The notes beneath the pieces were generated by a model. That model saw only the letters and a program-made list of their open reading frames with translations. It had not been told where the DNA came from and did not search any database. Shown one piece after another: positions 1,774 through 6,474 of a stretch of 25,492 bases of DNA. The position numbers and the translations under genes were made by a program. This DNA is from a virus, in the IMG/VR virus record IMGVR_UViG_3300042691_004849, positions 1-25,492 of that record. One strand, written 5' to 3'. Positions within the stretch are counted from its first letter, which is position 1; the number at the start of each line of letters is the position of its first letter.

Positions 1774-2556
1774 TTACTTAGCCGAAAATTCCTCAAATGC
1801 TGCATCAACAGACGATGCAGTACCCTTAGATTTAACTCCACCCTTTACAATTTCACGGGATGAAGTTTCTGCACTTTCATCGGATGCAAGAGCACTATCA
1901 AGAATCTTTTGCACATCAGCAGTAGTATGACGCTTGTAAAGTGTAGTAAAATCTGGAATAGTATCAAGAAGTTCCTTACACTTAGCGGGGCCACCATATG
2001 CTGGATCGCAAAGTGGAGACTCCTTACGACGAGGAGTGATCTTAGTCTCTGGGAAGGCACCGGGAGTAGTTGGCTTAGTATAGTCAATTACAAGATCAAA
2101 CCCAGTTTCTGGATCAGTAATATCGCCATAATCTGGATTTAGAACAAGTTGAATAAGGGTTTCATATGCACGCTTGCCATATGACCAGATTTGTACACCC
2201 TTCTTTTCATCACCACGAACGATGATTGGAGACATAAAACGTTGGCGAGGGAACAAGTCCTTTGCCATCTTTTGGCTTTCCTTATCTTCGTTAGCAGTAC
2301 CCTCACGCCAGAGTTGTGAAGCAAATTCACATACAGGACAAGTCTCGTTGTAATTCTTCTTTGGACAAAGGAAATTTTGATTTCCTACACCATAGTGAAA
2401 CCACATTTCCTTAAATGGATCACCATCTTCGGTAGGAACAATACGGATTGAGTGTTGTCCTGCCTCAATCTTCCACATATTTGTATTTGATGACCCACCA
2501 CTCTTTCCGTTAAGTGAATCAAGTTTTGCCTTCATTTTTGCAAGATCAAGTCCCAT
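1774..2556 (-). CDS. 32: Single-stranded DNA-binding protein gp32
   Basis: Cooperative single-strand DNA-binding protein of the replication fork and of UvsX-driven recombination. The N-terminus (MGLDLAKMKAKLDSLNGK) is basic, as in the cooperativity domain of T4 gp32. A zinc site is visible as H54, C64, C73 and C76, close to the H-C-C-C arrangement of T4 (H64, C77, C87, C90). The C-terminus is acidic and ends in VDAAFEEFSAK, the region that in T4 contacts partner proteins. The 260 residues compare with 301 in T4. Start at ATG 2556 with an AAGGAGT ribosome site. Codon choice looks more GC-rich than in neighbouring unknown genes, fitting high expression. A 54-base leader with a stem-loop precedes it and a strong terminator follows it. 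Confidence 0.93.
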   Translation of the reverse strand: MGLDLAKMKAKLDSLNGKSGGSSNTNMWKIEAGQHSIRIVPTEDGDPFKEMWFHYGVGNQNFLCPKKNYNETCPVCEFASQLWREGTANEDKESQKMAKDLFPRQRFMSPIIVRGDEKKGVQIWSYGKRAYETLIQLVLNPDYGDITDPETGFDLVIDYTKPTTPGAFPETKITPRRKESPLCDPAYGGPAKCKELLDTIPDFTTLYKRHTTADVQKILDSALASDESAETSSREIVKGGVKSKGTASSVDAAFEEFSAK

Positions 2557-2610: not shown

Positions 2611-2874
2611 TTAGAAAATATAACCACTACTAAACACAGAGTCAAGAGAGATTGTTTCAATTTGTCCAATCATGGTTTTTTCGTTGATGATACGAAAATC
2701 CCTTGCCTCTAGATCATATACTACACGATTTCCATCTTGTAGAACACGATTCACACCACTATTTTTAATTCTATCACTAATCAGTTGTTTTGGTAAATCT
2801 TTAACTTCACAGAAAAGCATAGTACGTAGAGTACCATCCTTCTTAGTGAAGGTAATCTTGTATGCAGATTCCAT
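2611..2874 (-). CDS. Small SH3/WYL_2-like protein
   Basis: An 87-residue protein beginning MESAYKITFTKKDGTLRTM, a strand-turn-strand pattern (TFTKKDG, then a VVYDLEARDFR strand) typical of the small Sm/SH3-like barrel proteins found in many T4-like phages and grouped as WYL_2. Members have no firmly established function. It starts at ATG 2874 with AGTAGG as ribosome site; that site overlaps the TAG stop of the preceding gene, so translation is probably coupled. The family call is from pattern recognition, without a search. Confidence 0.65.
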   Translation of the reverse strand: MESAYKITFTKKDGTLRTMLFCEVKDLPKQLISDRIKNSGVNRVLQDGNRVVYDLEARDFRIINEKTMIGQIETISLDSVFSSGYIF

Positions 2875-2879
2875 AATAC

Positions 2880-3698
2880 CTACTTTTGTATATAAGGGGA
2901 TTTATAAACTACGTAACAATAATTTACGTCATAATTGGACGAATATACGCCAAACATAATAGAACAGTTTTCTTCAATTTTAGAATCAATTTGATTGCTT
3001 ATGGTGTCAAATAACTCTCCATCGGTGTTAAGTTGTTTGTCATTGATACAGTAATAATATCTCTTCTCTCTAACATTGTCAAGCATGAAGAATTTATTTT
3101 CTTCTCCATCATCAAAATTCATAAGTCCAATAGTATTGATACAATATGTAACTGGTGTTTCTTGATAATTTGACATAACTGGTTCATTGTTATCAAGAAA
3201 ATTGATCATGTGAATATTAGAACAAATATGAGTATGTAATTTATCTTTGACTTGTGTAAGAGGAACTTTTCCTATCGTTTTGACAAGTATATCATACTCA
3301 AAGATAAACATCGAGTCAAATCTTTTGGAACGTGTATATTCTTGTAATACATTATACACAACTTTGTCTGTCATCCTTTGTGTCTCGGACAAAAACTTTT
3401 GTTGTGGTTTAATATAAAATATTCTTATTGTGCAATCTTTATAGTTTTCAAGAATTCTTAATGATGAAGCACACATAAGGTCTTCACCACACATGATTAC
3501 ATCTAACTCAGTTTCAATCTTGAAATTAGGATTTATAATTTGATTATCGTATTGCTCTGGATCGGATAAGTCTTCAAGAAAATAGTTGCTCTTATCTGTC
3601 TTAACATCTGGAGATATCTTGAATACAGAATATTGTGGATAACTATTAAACTTTTCTGCTATTGCAGAACCTATTTTTCCAATCCCAAGGATATTCAT
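2880..3698 (-). CDS. Candidate divergent tubulin/FtsZ-like protein
   Basis: A 272-residue protein whose order of segments follows the FtsZ/TubZ fold. An N-terminal nucleotide-type loop NILGIGKIGSAIAEKF is at 2-17. A strand DVIMCG at 66-71 runs into a short loop (GEDLMCASS, 71-79) where FtsZ has GGGTGSG. A strand TIRIFYIKP is at 90-98, a helix at 102-124, and a strand MFIFEYDILVKTIG at 130-143 resembles the FtsZ 'IPNDRLL' strand. The segment INFLDNNEPVM (165-175) sits at the T7 loop position, with N166, D169 and E172 as acidic candidates. The C-terminal FGVYSSNYDVNYCYVV strand pair resembles the FtsZ C-domain. The phosphate-loop glycines are largely lost, so GTPase activity is doubtful. Its ATG overlaps the Nudix stop (TAATG). 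The main alternative is a Rossmann-type NAD-binding protein (GxGxxG at the start). Confidence 0.45.
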   Translation of the reverse strand: MNILGIGKIGSAIAEKFNSYPQYSVFKISPDVKTDKSNYFLEDLSDPEQYDNQIINPNFKIETELDVIMCGEDLMCASSLRILENYKDCTIRIFYIKPQQKFLSETQRMTDKVVYNVLQEYTRSKRFDSMFIFEYDILVKTIGKVPLTQVKDKLHTHICSNIHMINFLDNNEPVMSNYQETPVTYCINTIGLMNFDDGEENKFFMLDNVREKRYYYCINDKQLNTDGELFDTISNQIDSKIEENCSIMFGVYSSNYDVNYCYVVYKSPYIQK

Positions 3699-4111
3699 TA
3701 GTAATAGCCTAATGGTATCTCAAGAGCATCAGCAATAAACTGCTTAAGTTTTGGTGTTGTCTTGTGGTTGTCAACATCATCAATTGTGATCCACTTGTGA
3801 TCTGAGTGCTCAAAGTTAAGTTTTACATCACCATCAAAATCATCACAAACATAAAGATAAAGTTTATTGTTATTAAATGCTTTTTTGGTTCCAACATAAC
3901 TAATCATTTTTGCTTTGATACCAGTTTCTTCTTCAAGTTCACGTTTAGCAGCATGATATGGAGTTTCTCCTACCATAATATGTCCACCGGGCAAACTCCA
4001 ATGCAAAGGCATCCAATAATCAGTTTTTGAGCGTTGAACGATTAAAACCTTCTTATCTTTTACAACGACAATAACAACTGTCTCGTTTGTGTCTTTTGGA
4101 TTTCTTTCCAC
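3698..4111 (-). CDS. Nudix hydrolase
   Basis: Hydrolase of nucleoside diphosphates linked to another group; phage members act on (d)NTPs, ADP-ribose, dinucleoside polyphosphates or capped RNA. The complete Nudix box is present: G43, E49, R57-E58, E61-E62 and G64 (G-x5-E-x7-RE-L-x-EE-x-G-I). The 137 residues are the usual size of a single-domain Nudix enzyme. Start is GTG at 4111, with a GGAG ribosome site five bases away; no in-frame ATG comes before the first strand. The stop overlaps the next start by one base (TAATG). Substrate cannot be read from the sequence. Confidence 0.93.
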   Translation of the reverse strand: MERNPKDTNETVVIVVVKDKKVLIVQRSKTDYWMPLHWSLPGGHIMVGETPYHAAKRELEEETGIKAKMISYVGTKKAFNNNKLYLYVCDDFDGDVKLNFEHSDHKWITIDDVDNHKTTPKLKQFIADALEIPLGYY

Positions 4112-4128: not shown

Positions 4129-4896
4129 TTATTTAACACCACGGAGGATATTTGTAAATGGGTGCTCCTGTGCTTTTTTGCCGGGATAAGTTAAAGCCTT
4201 ATCACCTCTTGCTTGTACTGCTTTTTTAATTGCTTCATCAGCAGACATACCAAATAACTGCATAGCAGTTAAACAAGCACCAGTAGCAGAACGATTTAAT
4301 CCGTGCGAACAAGTAAACAAAACAGATGATTGAGGATTTTGCTGTAAGAATTTAACAGCATCATTACCAGATGAAAGTAATTTAGTCTTTTCATCATCAG
4401 TAGGATTTTCTGTATCATTTATAGAATAAGATAAAACTAATTTACTTGGTATACTTTCGTTAGTTCTATCGTAATAATTCTTAATTACATCTGCAACTTG
4501 ATTAGACATAATATAAATTTTATCAAACTCTGGGTTATCCAGTACATTAGCCATTACTTTGCCTTTATTTATTGGTGCAGAGCCAATGTATATTCTATCG
4601 TGCATCTTATCAAAATCTGTATATTTTTCAGTTTCTTTTTGTTCTGGTTTATCTTTCTTCTTAAAGAAATCAAATAATCCTTCGTCTATGTGATAAACGT
4701 TTTCTCCAATTGGAGGAGCAGACTTAGAACGTTCCATTGATGGTTTTTGGGTAAATGGAGGAGTATTTGCTTGTCCACCATGACCAATAACCCTTTTCTT
4801 AAGACGAGAGTGTTTTGCTCTCATCTTTCTTTGGAAAGGTTCGTTTTGCTCTACAAGGTTTTTACACTCTTGAATTATTTGTTTCTCTTTTCTCAT
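4129..4896 (-). CDS. Dual-specificity / tyrosine phosphatase-like protein
   Basis: The C-terminal half (about 97-255) resembles a cysteine-dependent protein phosphatase. The P-loop is TCSHGLNRSATG with C196 and R202 in the required C-x5-R spacing followed by S203, and D161 is a candidate general acid (SYSINDTENP). The histidine that usually precedes the cysteine is replaced by T195. The N-terminal 60 residues are basic and look disordered, followed by GLFDFFKKK at about 73-81. Phosphatases of this class remove phosphate from proteins, RNA 5' ends or lipids; the substrate is unknown here. There is no Shine-Dalgarno sequence before ATG 4896, which is one base past the preceding stop region (stop 4900-4902), so translation may be coupled; M25 is an alternative start. 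Phosphatase family likely, role unknown. Confidence 0.75.
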   Translation of the reverse strand: MRKEKQIIQECKNLVEQNEPFQRKMRAKHSRLKKRVIGHGGQANTPPFTQKPSMERSKSAPPIGENVYHIDEGLFDFFKKKDKPEQKETEKYTDFDKMHDRIYIGSAPINKGKVMANVLDNPEFDKIYIMSNQVADVIKNYYDRTNESIPSKLVLSYSINDTENPTDDEKTKLLSSGNDAVKFLQQNPQSSVLFTCSHGLNRSATGACLTAMQLFGMSADEAIKKAVQARGDKALTYPGKKAQEHPFTNILRGVK

Positions 4897-5271: not shown

Positions 5272-6474
5272 TTAAATAGTTTGTTTATAACTAATTTTCT
5301 TCATTTCTCCAAAGTTTGATCCTGCTTTGATATTTACCAAAAACTTACCAAACTCTGTTGCTGAGAATACATCTACAATCTTTGGAAGCAAATGCTTTTC
5401 GTCATCTGCCAAATCAACAATAATGTTGTCGTGAATTGTAAATGCAATATAAGATTTATAGCCCTCCAATAGTTTTGCAACTTTTACCATTTGCTTGAGC
5501 ACCAAATCAGCAAACGTAGATTGAACAATATACGAAAGTGAGTGGTGTTTATCTGCTTCTATCTCTCTTCCCCAATACGTTGTAACTTTGCTTCCATCCC
5601 AATGTTTACTTCTTACCAATTCTTTGTTGTATATCTCTTCTGCTTTCTTATTATCAATATCACCATATAACCATGCAAAAATCTTCTTCTTTGCGTCTTC
5701 TCTATCCATATCACCATTAAAAATGTTCTCTATGTTCCAATCATGAATATCAACTTTTGGCTGTTCTTTACCAGCAAGTGCAAGAAATGTTCGTAGTTCT
5801 GCTCCGTTAAAATCAAGTTCCAAAAACCAATCGTTTGTTGGTTTAATTACGTTTCTATATTCCTTATCAAGTTGATGAATAGGAAACGAATTTGGAATAG
5901 TAGAAAGTCTTCCTGTCTTTGTTCCAAAAATATCATACTTGATATACGGAGACAAATTATTGTACTTAATCTTTGCTCTTTTTACAGCAGGATTTGCAAT
6001 TTTAAGATCAAGCACGGAAGTATCAATATTAAGTTGTTGTTTAGAAATGTTATTGCAAACTTTCATAACCTCAACAAGATGGTCATAATTGTTTGGCTTT
6101 TGATAATTCTCAACAACATGCTGAATTATCTTGGTCTTTACAGAAAAGTAATCAACCAAGAAGGACAACGGCACCATATCGTAATAGCAGTTCTGTTCCA
6201 AGTCAATCTTAGAAAGAAAAAATGATCGGAAGAAAGCCTTAAACTTATCATTTAAGTATTTCCAATCTTCTGCAAGATGTTGAGGACATACTTCGCTAAT
6301 TGTTTTTCCACCACAATATAACGAAACATAATGGACATTACTATAATTATCCAAAACTGGATTATAAGTCCAACAAAAATGTTGTTCATCTTTATCTGGT
6401 GGACTATGAGAAATGTTGCCGTCAAAGAAATAACCAAAACAATCGTACTTATTGTCGATTACCTCAAAAATCAT
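5272..6474 (-). CDS. Family A DNA polymerase, polymerase domain only
   Basis: Template-directed DNA synthesis. Family A motifs are all visible: TGRLS at 187-191; motif A with D221 and E226 in LELDFNGAELR; the O-helix with R258, K262, F266, Y270 and G271 in the same spacing as E. coli Pol I (R754, K758, F762, Y766); VQSTFADL at about 317-324; and motif C as H348-D349-N350, where most family members have HDE. At 400 residues it covers only a polymerase domain, with short connections between motifs; no 3'-5' exonuclease domain is present and I find none elsewhere in the window. Rhodothermus phage RM378 is known for polymerase and exonuclease on separate genes, so a distant partner is plausible. 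The ATG overlaps the preceding gene by four bases (ATGA), implying coupled translation. Confidence 0.92.
   Translation of the reverse strand: MIFEVIDNKYDCFGYFFDGNISHSPPDKDEQHFCWTYNPVLDNYSNVHYVSLYCGGKTISEVCPQHLAEDWKYLNDKFKAFFRSFFLSKIDLEQNCYYDMVPLSFLVDYFSVKTKIIQHVVENYQKPNNYDHLVEVMKVCNNISKQQLNIDTSVLDLKIANPAVKRAKIKYNNLSPYIKYDIFGTKTGRLSTIPNSFPIHQLDKEYRNVIKPTNDWFLELDFNGAELRTFLALAGKEQPKVDIHDWNIENIFNGDMDREDAKKKIFAWLYGDIDNKKAEEIYNKELVRSKHWDGSKVTTYWGREIEADKHHSLSYIVQSTFADLVLKQMVKVAKLLEGYKSYIAFTIHDNIIVDLADDEKHLLPKIVDVFSATEFGKFLVNIKAGSNFGEMKKISYKQTI
5273..5280 (-). promoter_or_regulatory. Putative late-promoter octamer ACTATTTA
   Basis: Exact copy of the octamer, here forming the last codons of the polymerase gene (ACT ATT TAA). 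It lies 19 bases upstream of the ferritin-like gene's ATG. As it overlaps coding sequence it is the weakest of the exact copies. Confidence 0.35.

Follow-up and report, generated by a model that had tools for sequence, protein, structure and literature searches.

Does a T4-like phage lineage encode a relative of tubulin, and if so, what would the protein do? The question is raised by the window analysed here (the whole 25,492-nucleotide stretch of IMG/VR record IMGVR_UViG_3300042691_004849), a 25.5-kb virus sequence with T4-type structural genes. A gene at positions 2880..3698 of its minus strand encodes a protein, here designated TUB, that a preliminary description had proposed to be an undescribed phage member of the tubulin/FtsZ superfamily. 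Phage tubulins have been reported mainly for the nucleus-forming Chimalliviridae and for only a few large phages besides (PMC11835377), and TubZ represents the partition type (PMC7950403).

The TUB gene

The TUB open reading frame begins with ATG and encodes 272 amino acids (aa); its start codon overlaps the stop codon of the upstream Nudix gene as TAATG. All sequence motifs quoted in the preliminary description were located in the translation: GIGKIGSA (residues 5-12), DVIMCG (66-71), GEDLMCASS (71-79) and TIRIFYIKP (90-98) in the N-terminal part, followed by MFIFEYDILVKTIG (130-143), INFLDNNEPVM (165-175) and FGVYSSNYDV (249-258). Since length and reading frame are kept in relatives with 83, 71 and 64% identity, and dN/dS values are low (0.06-0.15 in nine pairs, with 0.125 in both tested pairs that include the window), TUB is a real gene. 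It is under purifying selection, also in the clade to which the window belongs.

Predicted structure

The window TUB was modelled with AlphaFold2 from a 50-row alignment (pLDDT 95.3, pTM 0.92), and the order of strands and helices in the model is that of the tubulin/FtsZ fold. The top 50 matches in a Foldseek comparison with the PDB were all FtsZ or TubZ (E from 5e-11 to 1e-9), the best being FtsZ (E 5e-11). VIA-align gave Z scores of 22.8 for CetZ, 21.7 for TubZ, 21.5 for FtsZ and about 20 for tubulin, with 250-267 of the 272 residues aligned. The model of a relative that keeps the loop glycines, L034 (pLDDT 94.9), matched CetZ with Z 25.3 at 2.8 Å over 253 residues. In both confident models the tubulin topology, i.e. 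an N-terminal nucleotide-binding domain, the central helix H7 (residues 147-169 by DSSP in the window; 3192..3260, minus strand) and a C-terminal domain (residues 187-272; 2883..3140, minus strand), is matched with Z 20-25 over 250-272 residues. The C-terminal domain ends in SPYIQK, whose Q271 is found in 61 of 68 relatives. Among viral structures (BFVD) the best matches were phage FtsZ/tubulin proteins; for L034 this was A0A6J5RW92, annotated as "FtsZ" of an uncultured Caudovirales phage (TMq 0.81, E 3.6e-13, 18% identity), which has 452 aa compared with about 275 aa in TUB.

The preliminary description would have been contradicted by a dehydrogenase-like model. A Rossmann-type enzyme or an NAD(P)/nucleotide sensor, resembling tubulin only in its core, could explain why the KtrA RCK profile (E 1.4e-4 to 0.0037) and TrkA_N match the N-terminal part of TUB. 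However, these NAD-type matches are limited to the glycine loop and the first strands, whereas the structural match extends over the entire length of TUB, with H7 and the C-terminal domain included, and the top-ranked Foldseek chains are all tubulin/FtsZ, so we regard this explanation as very improbable. Structure prediction yielded a tubulin/FtsZ fold and no dehydrogenase, and the proposed superfamily assignment is upheld by full-length matches of both models to FtsZ, TubZ, CetZ and tubulin. TUB almost certainly belongs to the tubulin/FtsZ fold as modelled, and by predicted shape it is a small, hitherto unclassified relative of FtsZ and tubulin.

Sequence similarity to known families

None of the curated libraries Pfam, PHROGs and NCBIfam contains a family that matches TUB above cut-off, as anticipated by the earlier remark that ordinary searches may miss this protein. 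The model matching most members was NCBIfam ftsZ (TIGR00065), with 9/49 and 7/58 members (best E 2.8e-4, below cut-off), and Pfam Tubulin (PF00091) matched 4/58 (best E 0.0047, also below cut-off); the window TUB itself was matched by neither. Profile-profile comparison, which the preliminary description had proposed, gave a divided result. With hhalign the PhuZ profile scored 25.0, and none of 30 column shuffles exceeded 18.3, which is a weak signal under curated cut-offs, while the comparison with FtsZ (P 0.17-0.24) fell inside the column-shuffle range. Sequence homology between TUB and FtsZ is for that reason not claimed, and the homology of TUB rests on predicted structure; the sequences themselves are suggestive of a tubulin/FtsZ relationship.

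Genomic context and distribution

About 130 relatives of TUB were identified, all on uncultivated virus contigs. In the IMG/VR collection 65 loci were found by TUB motifs and a few more via other members, and about 80 by way of the polymerase, partly on the same contigs as the motif-found loci; the motif scans were seeded with the YNVLQEY part of a signature in helix H5. Three TUB family members used as queries retrieved nothing from 50,697 named phage genomes, 179 of which carry a PhuZ match, and a scan of the genomes of 84,980 bacterial and archaeal species yielded no relative. Eight contigs of 106-204 kb each carry one copy of the gene (in one of them reported as two adjacent pieces). A frameshifted TUB, seen as two overlapping hits, occurs at L078:8001-8790 and also in L013, and may be a sequencing error or a decayed copy.

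The gene order large ORF - gp8-like ORF - PolA - TUB - gp32 - UvsX was observed in about 70 loci, on one strand and down to 25% identity. In the collection gathered through PolA only, TUB directly follows PolA and precedes gp32 in 73/73 testable loci (those with at least 1 kb downstream of PolA, among the best 80 of at least 588 polymerase-bearing IMG/VR stretches), a count that applies to polymerases of this neighbourhood. TUB thus belongs to the core of the replication operon in this group. The usual upstream neighbour is a short family-A DNA polymerase (in the window 400 aa; 5272..6474, minus strand; PF00476 E 7e-13 and synteny), and the constant downstream neighbour is a gp32-like single-strand DNA-binding protein (1774..2556, minus strand; PF08804 E 4e-16). 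The polymerase size of about 400 aa is constant throughout the group.

The immediate surroundings in the window are as described earlier, with a Nudix hydrolase gene upstream (3698..4111, minus strand; PF00293 E 4e-23) and gp32 downstream. Between TUB and gp32 there is an 87-aa WYL_2/Sm-like ORF (2611..2874, minus strand; PF10902 E 0.004, below cut-off), which is present in part of the loci only. Genes for Nudix, phosphatase-like and DUF5856 proteins are insertions essentially confined to the window clade. The dual-specificity-phosphatase-like ORF of this clade lies two genes upstream of TUB (window 4129-4896, minus strand; L128:3931-5451; L247). In phiKZ and phage D6 a dual-specificity phosphatase gene directly follows PhuZ; the resemblance is possibly a coincidence, and the phosphatase-like gene of the window is an insertion specific to its clade.

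The Far-T4 group is known mostly through metagenomics (PMC4360716) and has been tied to Flavobacteriales by host prediction (PMC13037479). The gp23 of the window, compared over 97% of the protein, is 48% identical to that of the Flavobacterium immuto phages, 40% to RM378 and 37% to Microcystis phage Mel-JY01, with 31-35% for cyanophages. By the identities of this protein the window genome is Far-T4-like, being nearer the RM378/immuto group than T4 and the cyanophages, and RM378, the immuto phages and Mel-JY01 are closest or among the closest for both gp23 and gp32. The immuto phages and Mel-JY01 share the order PolA - gp32 - RecA with the window. Unlike the window, however, RM378, immuto and Mel-JY01 have no TUB: a profile search of Mel-JY01, LR756508, immuto and RM378 found none, apart from one 11-bit fragment elsewhere in the immuto genome that we take as chance. 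TUB therefore marks a subgroup of the Far-T4-like phages. Relatives of the window by gp23, namely immuto, Mel-JY01 and LR756508, have an unrelated protein of 129-151 aa behind PolA instead. Proteins of this post-PolA slot are encoded at L328:1346-1801, L210:3813-4256 and L211:5374-5763 and match one another in phmmer with E of about 1e-28 to 1e-40; a truncated TUB was considered for them and ruled out (4.8 bits, hhalign P 0.51). As to the idea that TUB replaces the sliding clamp of T4, the clamp model PF02916 had no match above cut-off in the eight large contigs, RM378 or immuto, but it is likely insensitive at this distance and we draw no conclusion from it.

Tubulin is unmentioned in the two Far-T4 studies cited above (PMC4360716, PMC13037479), and the literature covered, which is that readable without subscription, yielded no account of one in Far-T4 phages.

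Putative nucleotide-binding site

The loop register of TUB was set by the loops of FtsZ, tubulin and PhuZ, together with hhalign registers. In this presumed register T1 corresponds to GIGKIGSA (3663..3686, minus strand), T4 to GEDLMCASS (3462..3488, minus strand) and T6 lies at Y135 (3294..3296, minus strand), with the guanine position of H7 at H155. Residues were counted in 68 distinct proteins gathered via PolA and not via TUB. The T1 glycines G5, G7 and G10 (GxGxxG) are present in 68/68 and Asp at position 29 in 61/68. Asn is found at 135 (T6) and at 155 (start of H7) in 63/68 each, the window having Tyr and His155, respectively; judging from the alignment, Asn135 and Asn155 probably read guanine in most members. 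Position T4 is mostly GSGxIS, unlike the GGGTG[ST]G form, and GED in the window. In the alignment called for in the preliminary description, relatives do have glycines at 71-79.

The window, L006, L008, L009, L012 and L014 form one group with support of 100/100. At position 135 these proteins have Tyr or another residue, never Asn; Asn155 is present in L008, L009 and L012 and missing in the window, L006 and L014. Asn135 is also missing from two further groups, so that the tree requires three changes; if only its strongly supported branches are considered, a single change is forced. Because most members have the glycines and the Asn residues, theirs is the usual family state and the window represents a degenerate branch. 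Its T4 sequence GED is probably derived; the tree has no outgroup, and the direction of change is inferred. On this alignment, the best reading is that nucleotide residues were largely lost from the window's clade and that the window form is nucleotide-degenerate.

Filament elements missing from the models, and comparison with PhuZ and other tubulins

Loop T7, the base of helix H8 and the catalytic Asp of T7 are important for protofilaments, and these elements are common to the protofilaments of tubulin, FtsZ and PhuZ (PMC3678025). In both TUB models DSSP assigns no helix between H7 and S7, i.e. H8 is absent from the T7 region (residues 170-186; 3141..3191, minus strand), and no column at 168-186 is acidic in more than 63% of the 68 relatives. 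The segment INFLDNNEPVM, earlier called T7-like, does sit at the T7 place, but it has neither an H8 helix nor a conserved acid. In the modelled TUB the elements of the canonical protofilament and of its GTPase site are absent, and without T7 and H8 the protein is unlikely to form a classic filament.

Outside the nucleotide loops L80, Q119 and R123 are invariant, and S124, H163, N166 and Y214 nearly so. Three of these residues lie in the H5 signature YNVLQEYTRS (residues 115-124; 3327..3356, minus strand), with Q119 and R123 in 68/68 and S124 in 67/68 relatives. The invariance of YNVLQEY was dropped as evidence, since this motif was the scan seed; loci found through PolA vary here (FNVLQQY, FGVLQEY and other forms), and the firm part of H5 is only Q119, R123 and S124.

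PhuZ of the phiKZ-like nucleus-forming phages is, like TUB, a phage-encoded protein of the tubulin/FtsZ fold, shares with it a glycine loop of the type GGxGxx and a T4 of the type GGSGS, and gives the weak profile match above shuffles. However, PhuZ, with about 312-327 aa, possesses both T7 and H8 and assembles into canonical protofilaments (PMC3678025), whereas TUB has about 262-290 aa and models without H8, and lies between PolA and gp32 in Far-T4-like phages rather than in nucleus-forming ones. TUB was not assigned to PhuZ, there being no sequence match in the phage set that contains PhuZ and only the weak profile match. CetZ, TubZ and FtsZ match the TUB fold over its full length with Z 20-25, but at 8-16% identity, and TUB differs from them in lacking the T7 acid and H8 and in falling below every curated cut-off. 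Taken together, we put at roughly 85% the probability that TUB represents a new tubulin/FtsZ-fold family that lacks filament elements and is core to an uncultivated phage group.

A cytomotive filament of the PhuZ/TubZ kind, built through an altered longitudinal interface and serving to position or segregate phage DNA during its replication, would nevertheless accord with several observations. The fold is the same, guanine residues and glycine loops are kept in most members (a conservation that might just as well reflect polymerisation via a non-canonical interface), TUB is co-localised with replication genes, and phage tubulins are known to position DNA (PMC7950403). H8 and the conserved T7 acid, the shared protofilament elements (PMC3678025), are missing, however, and the window clade has lost nucleotide residues yet is under purifying selection; such a filament therefore seems unlikely to us.

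Possible function of TUB

The fixed operon place of TUB suggests a role in replication or DNA positioning. Among the functions proposed in the preliminary description, namely a filament, a decoy of host FtsZ or a DNA-positioning factor, the classic filament is disfavoured by the missing T7 and H8, and DNA copying or positioning is suggested by the place of the gene. A decoy or cap that blocks host division by binding FtsZ would suit an FtsZ-like fold in which one canonical filament face remains and the T7/H8 face is gone. However, one would expect an early host-takeover gene to change its place and to be variable, whereas TUB is in the replication operon in all 73 loci, and the residues of the nucleotide face are gone from the window clade. 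The strict place between PolA and gp32 points to replication and not to a decoy, which we consider quite improbable.

We favour, at slightly better than even odds, the view that TUB, a fixed member of the replication-recombination operon, is an accessory of replication in Far-T4-like phages; counting against it, a place in the operon is no proof of a role in replication, and the same operon carries unrelated inserts (Nudix, phosphatase-like). The slot between PolA and the single-strand DNA-binding protein, the lost filament elements and the persistence of TUB where nucleotide reading is lost fit a replication-accessory scaffold, under nucleotide control in most members and independent of nucleotide in the window clade. 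In most TUB members a guanine nucleotide would be bound, either as a switch or as a structural ligand, and a TUB without T7 and H8 would form neither a canonical protofilament nor a polymerisation-activated GTPase site. The protein may assist the phage replication machinery through contacts with PolA, with gp32 or with DNA under replication, and the invariant H5 surface LQ-Y-x-R-S would be one of the surfaces involved; the window clade keeps this surface, whereas nucleotide reading would have been lost there, leaving a nucleotide-independent scaffold. TUB is probably a nucleotide-binding, non-filamentous replication accessory of tubulin fold. More tentatively, and at somewhat less than even odds, we hypothesize that the tubulin fold was recruited as a non-filamentous, nucleotide-controlled replication component and that some lineages dropped the nucleotide and kept the interaction surface.

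With TUB the tubulin fold reaches a group of phages represented by at least 588 polymerase-bearing IMG/VR stretches (TUB having been checked in the best 80), where it has a constant replication context and lacks the elements of canonical filaments. The family would also give a name to a core gene that annotation pipelines call hypothetical. What is new in this protein is the absence of H8 and of an acidic T7 from both models, together with nucleotide residues that most members keep and the window clade has largely lost. It offers a direct way to ask whether tubulin works without polymerising; if the proposed role is true, TUB would be a tubulin relative that acts at the replisome and not in a filament.
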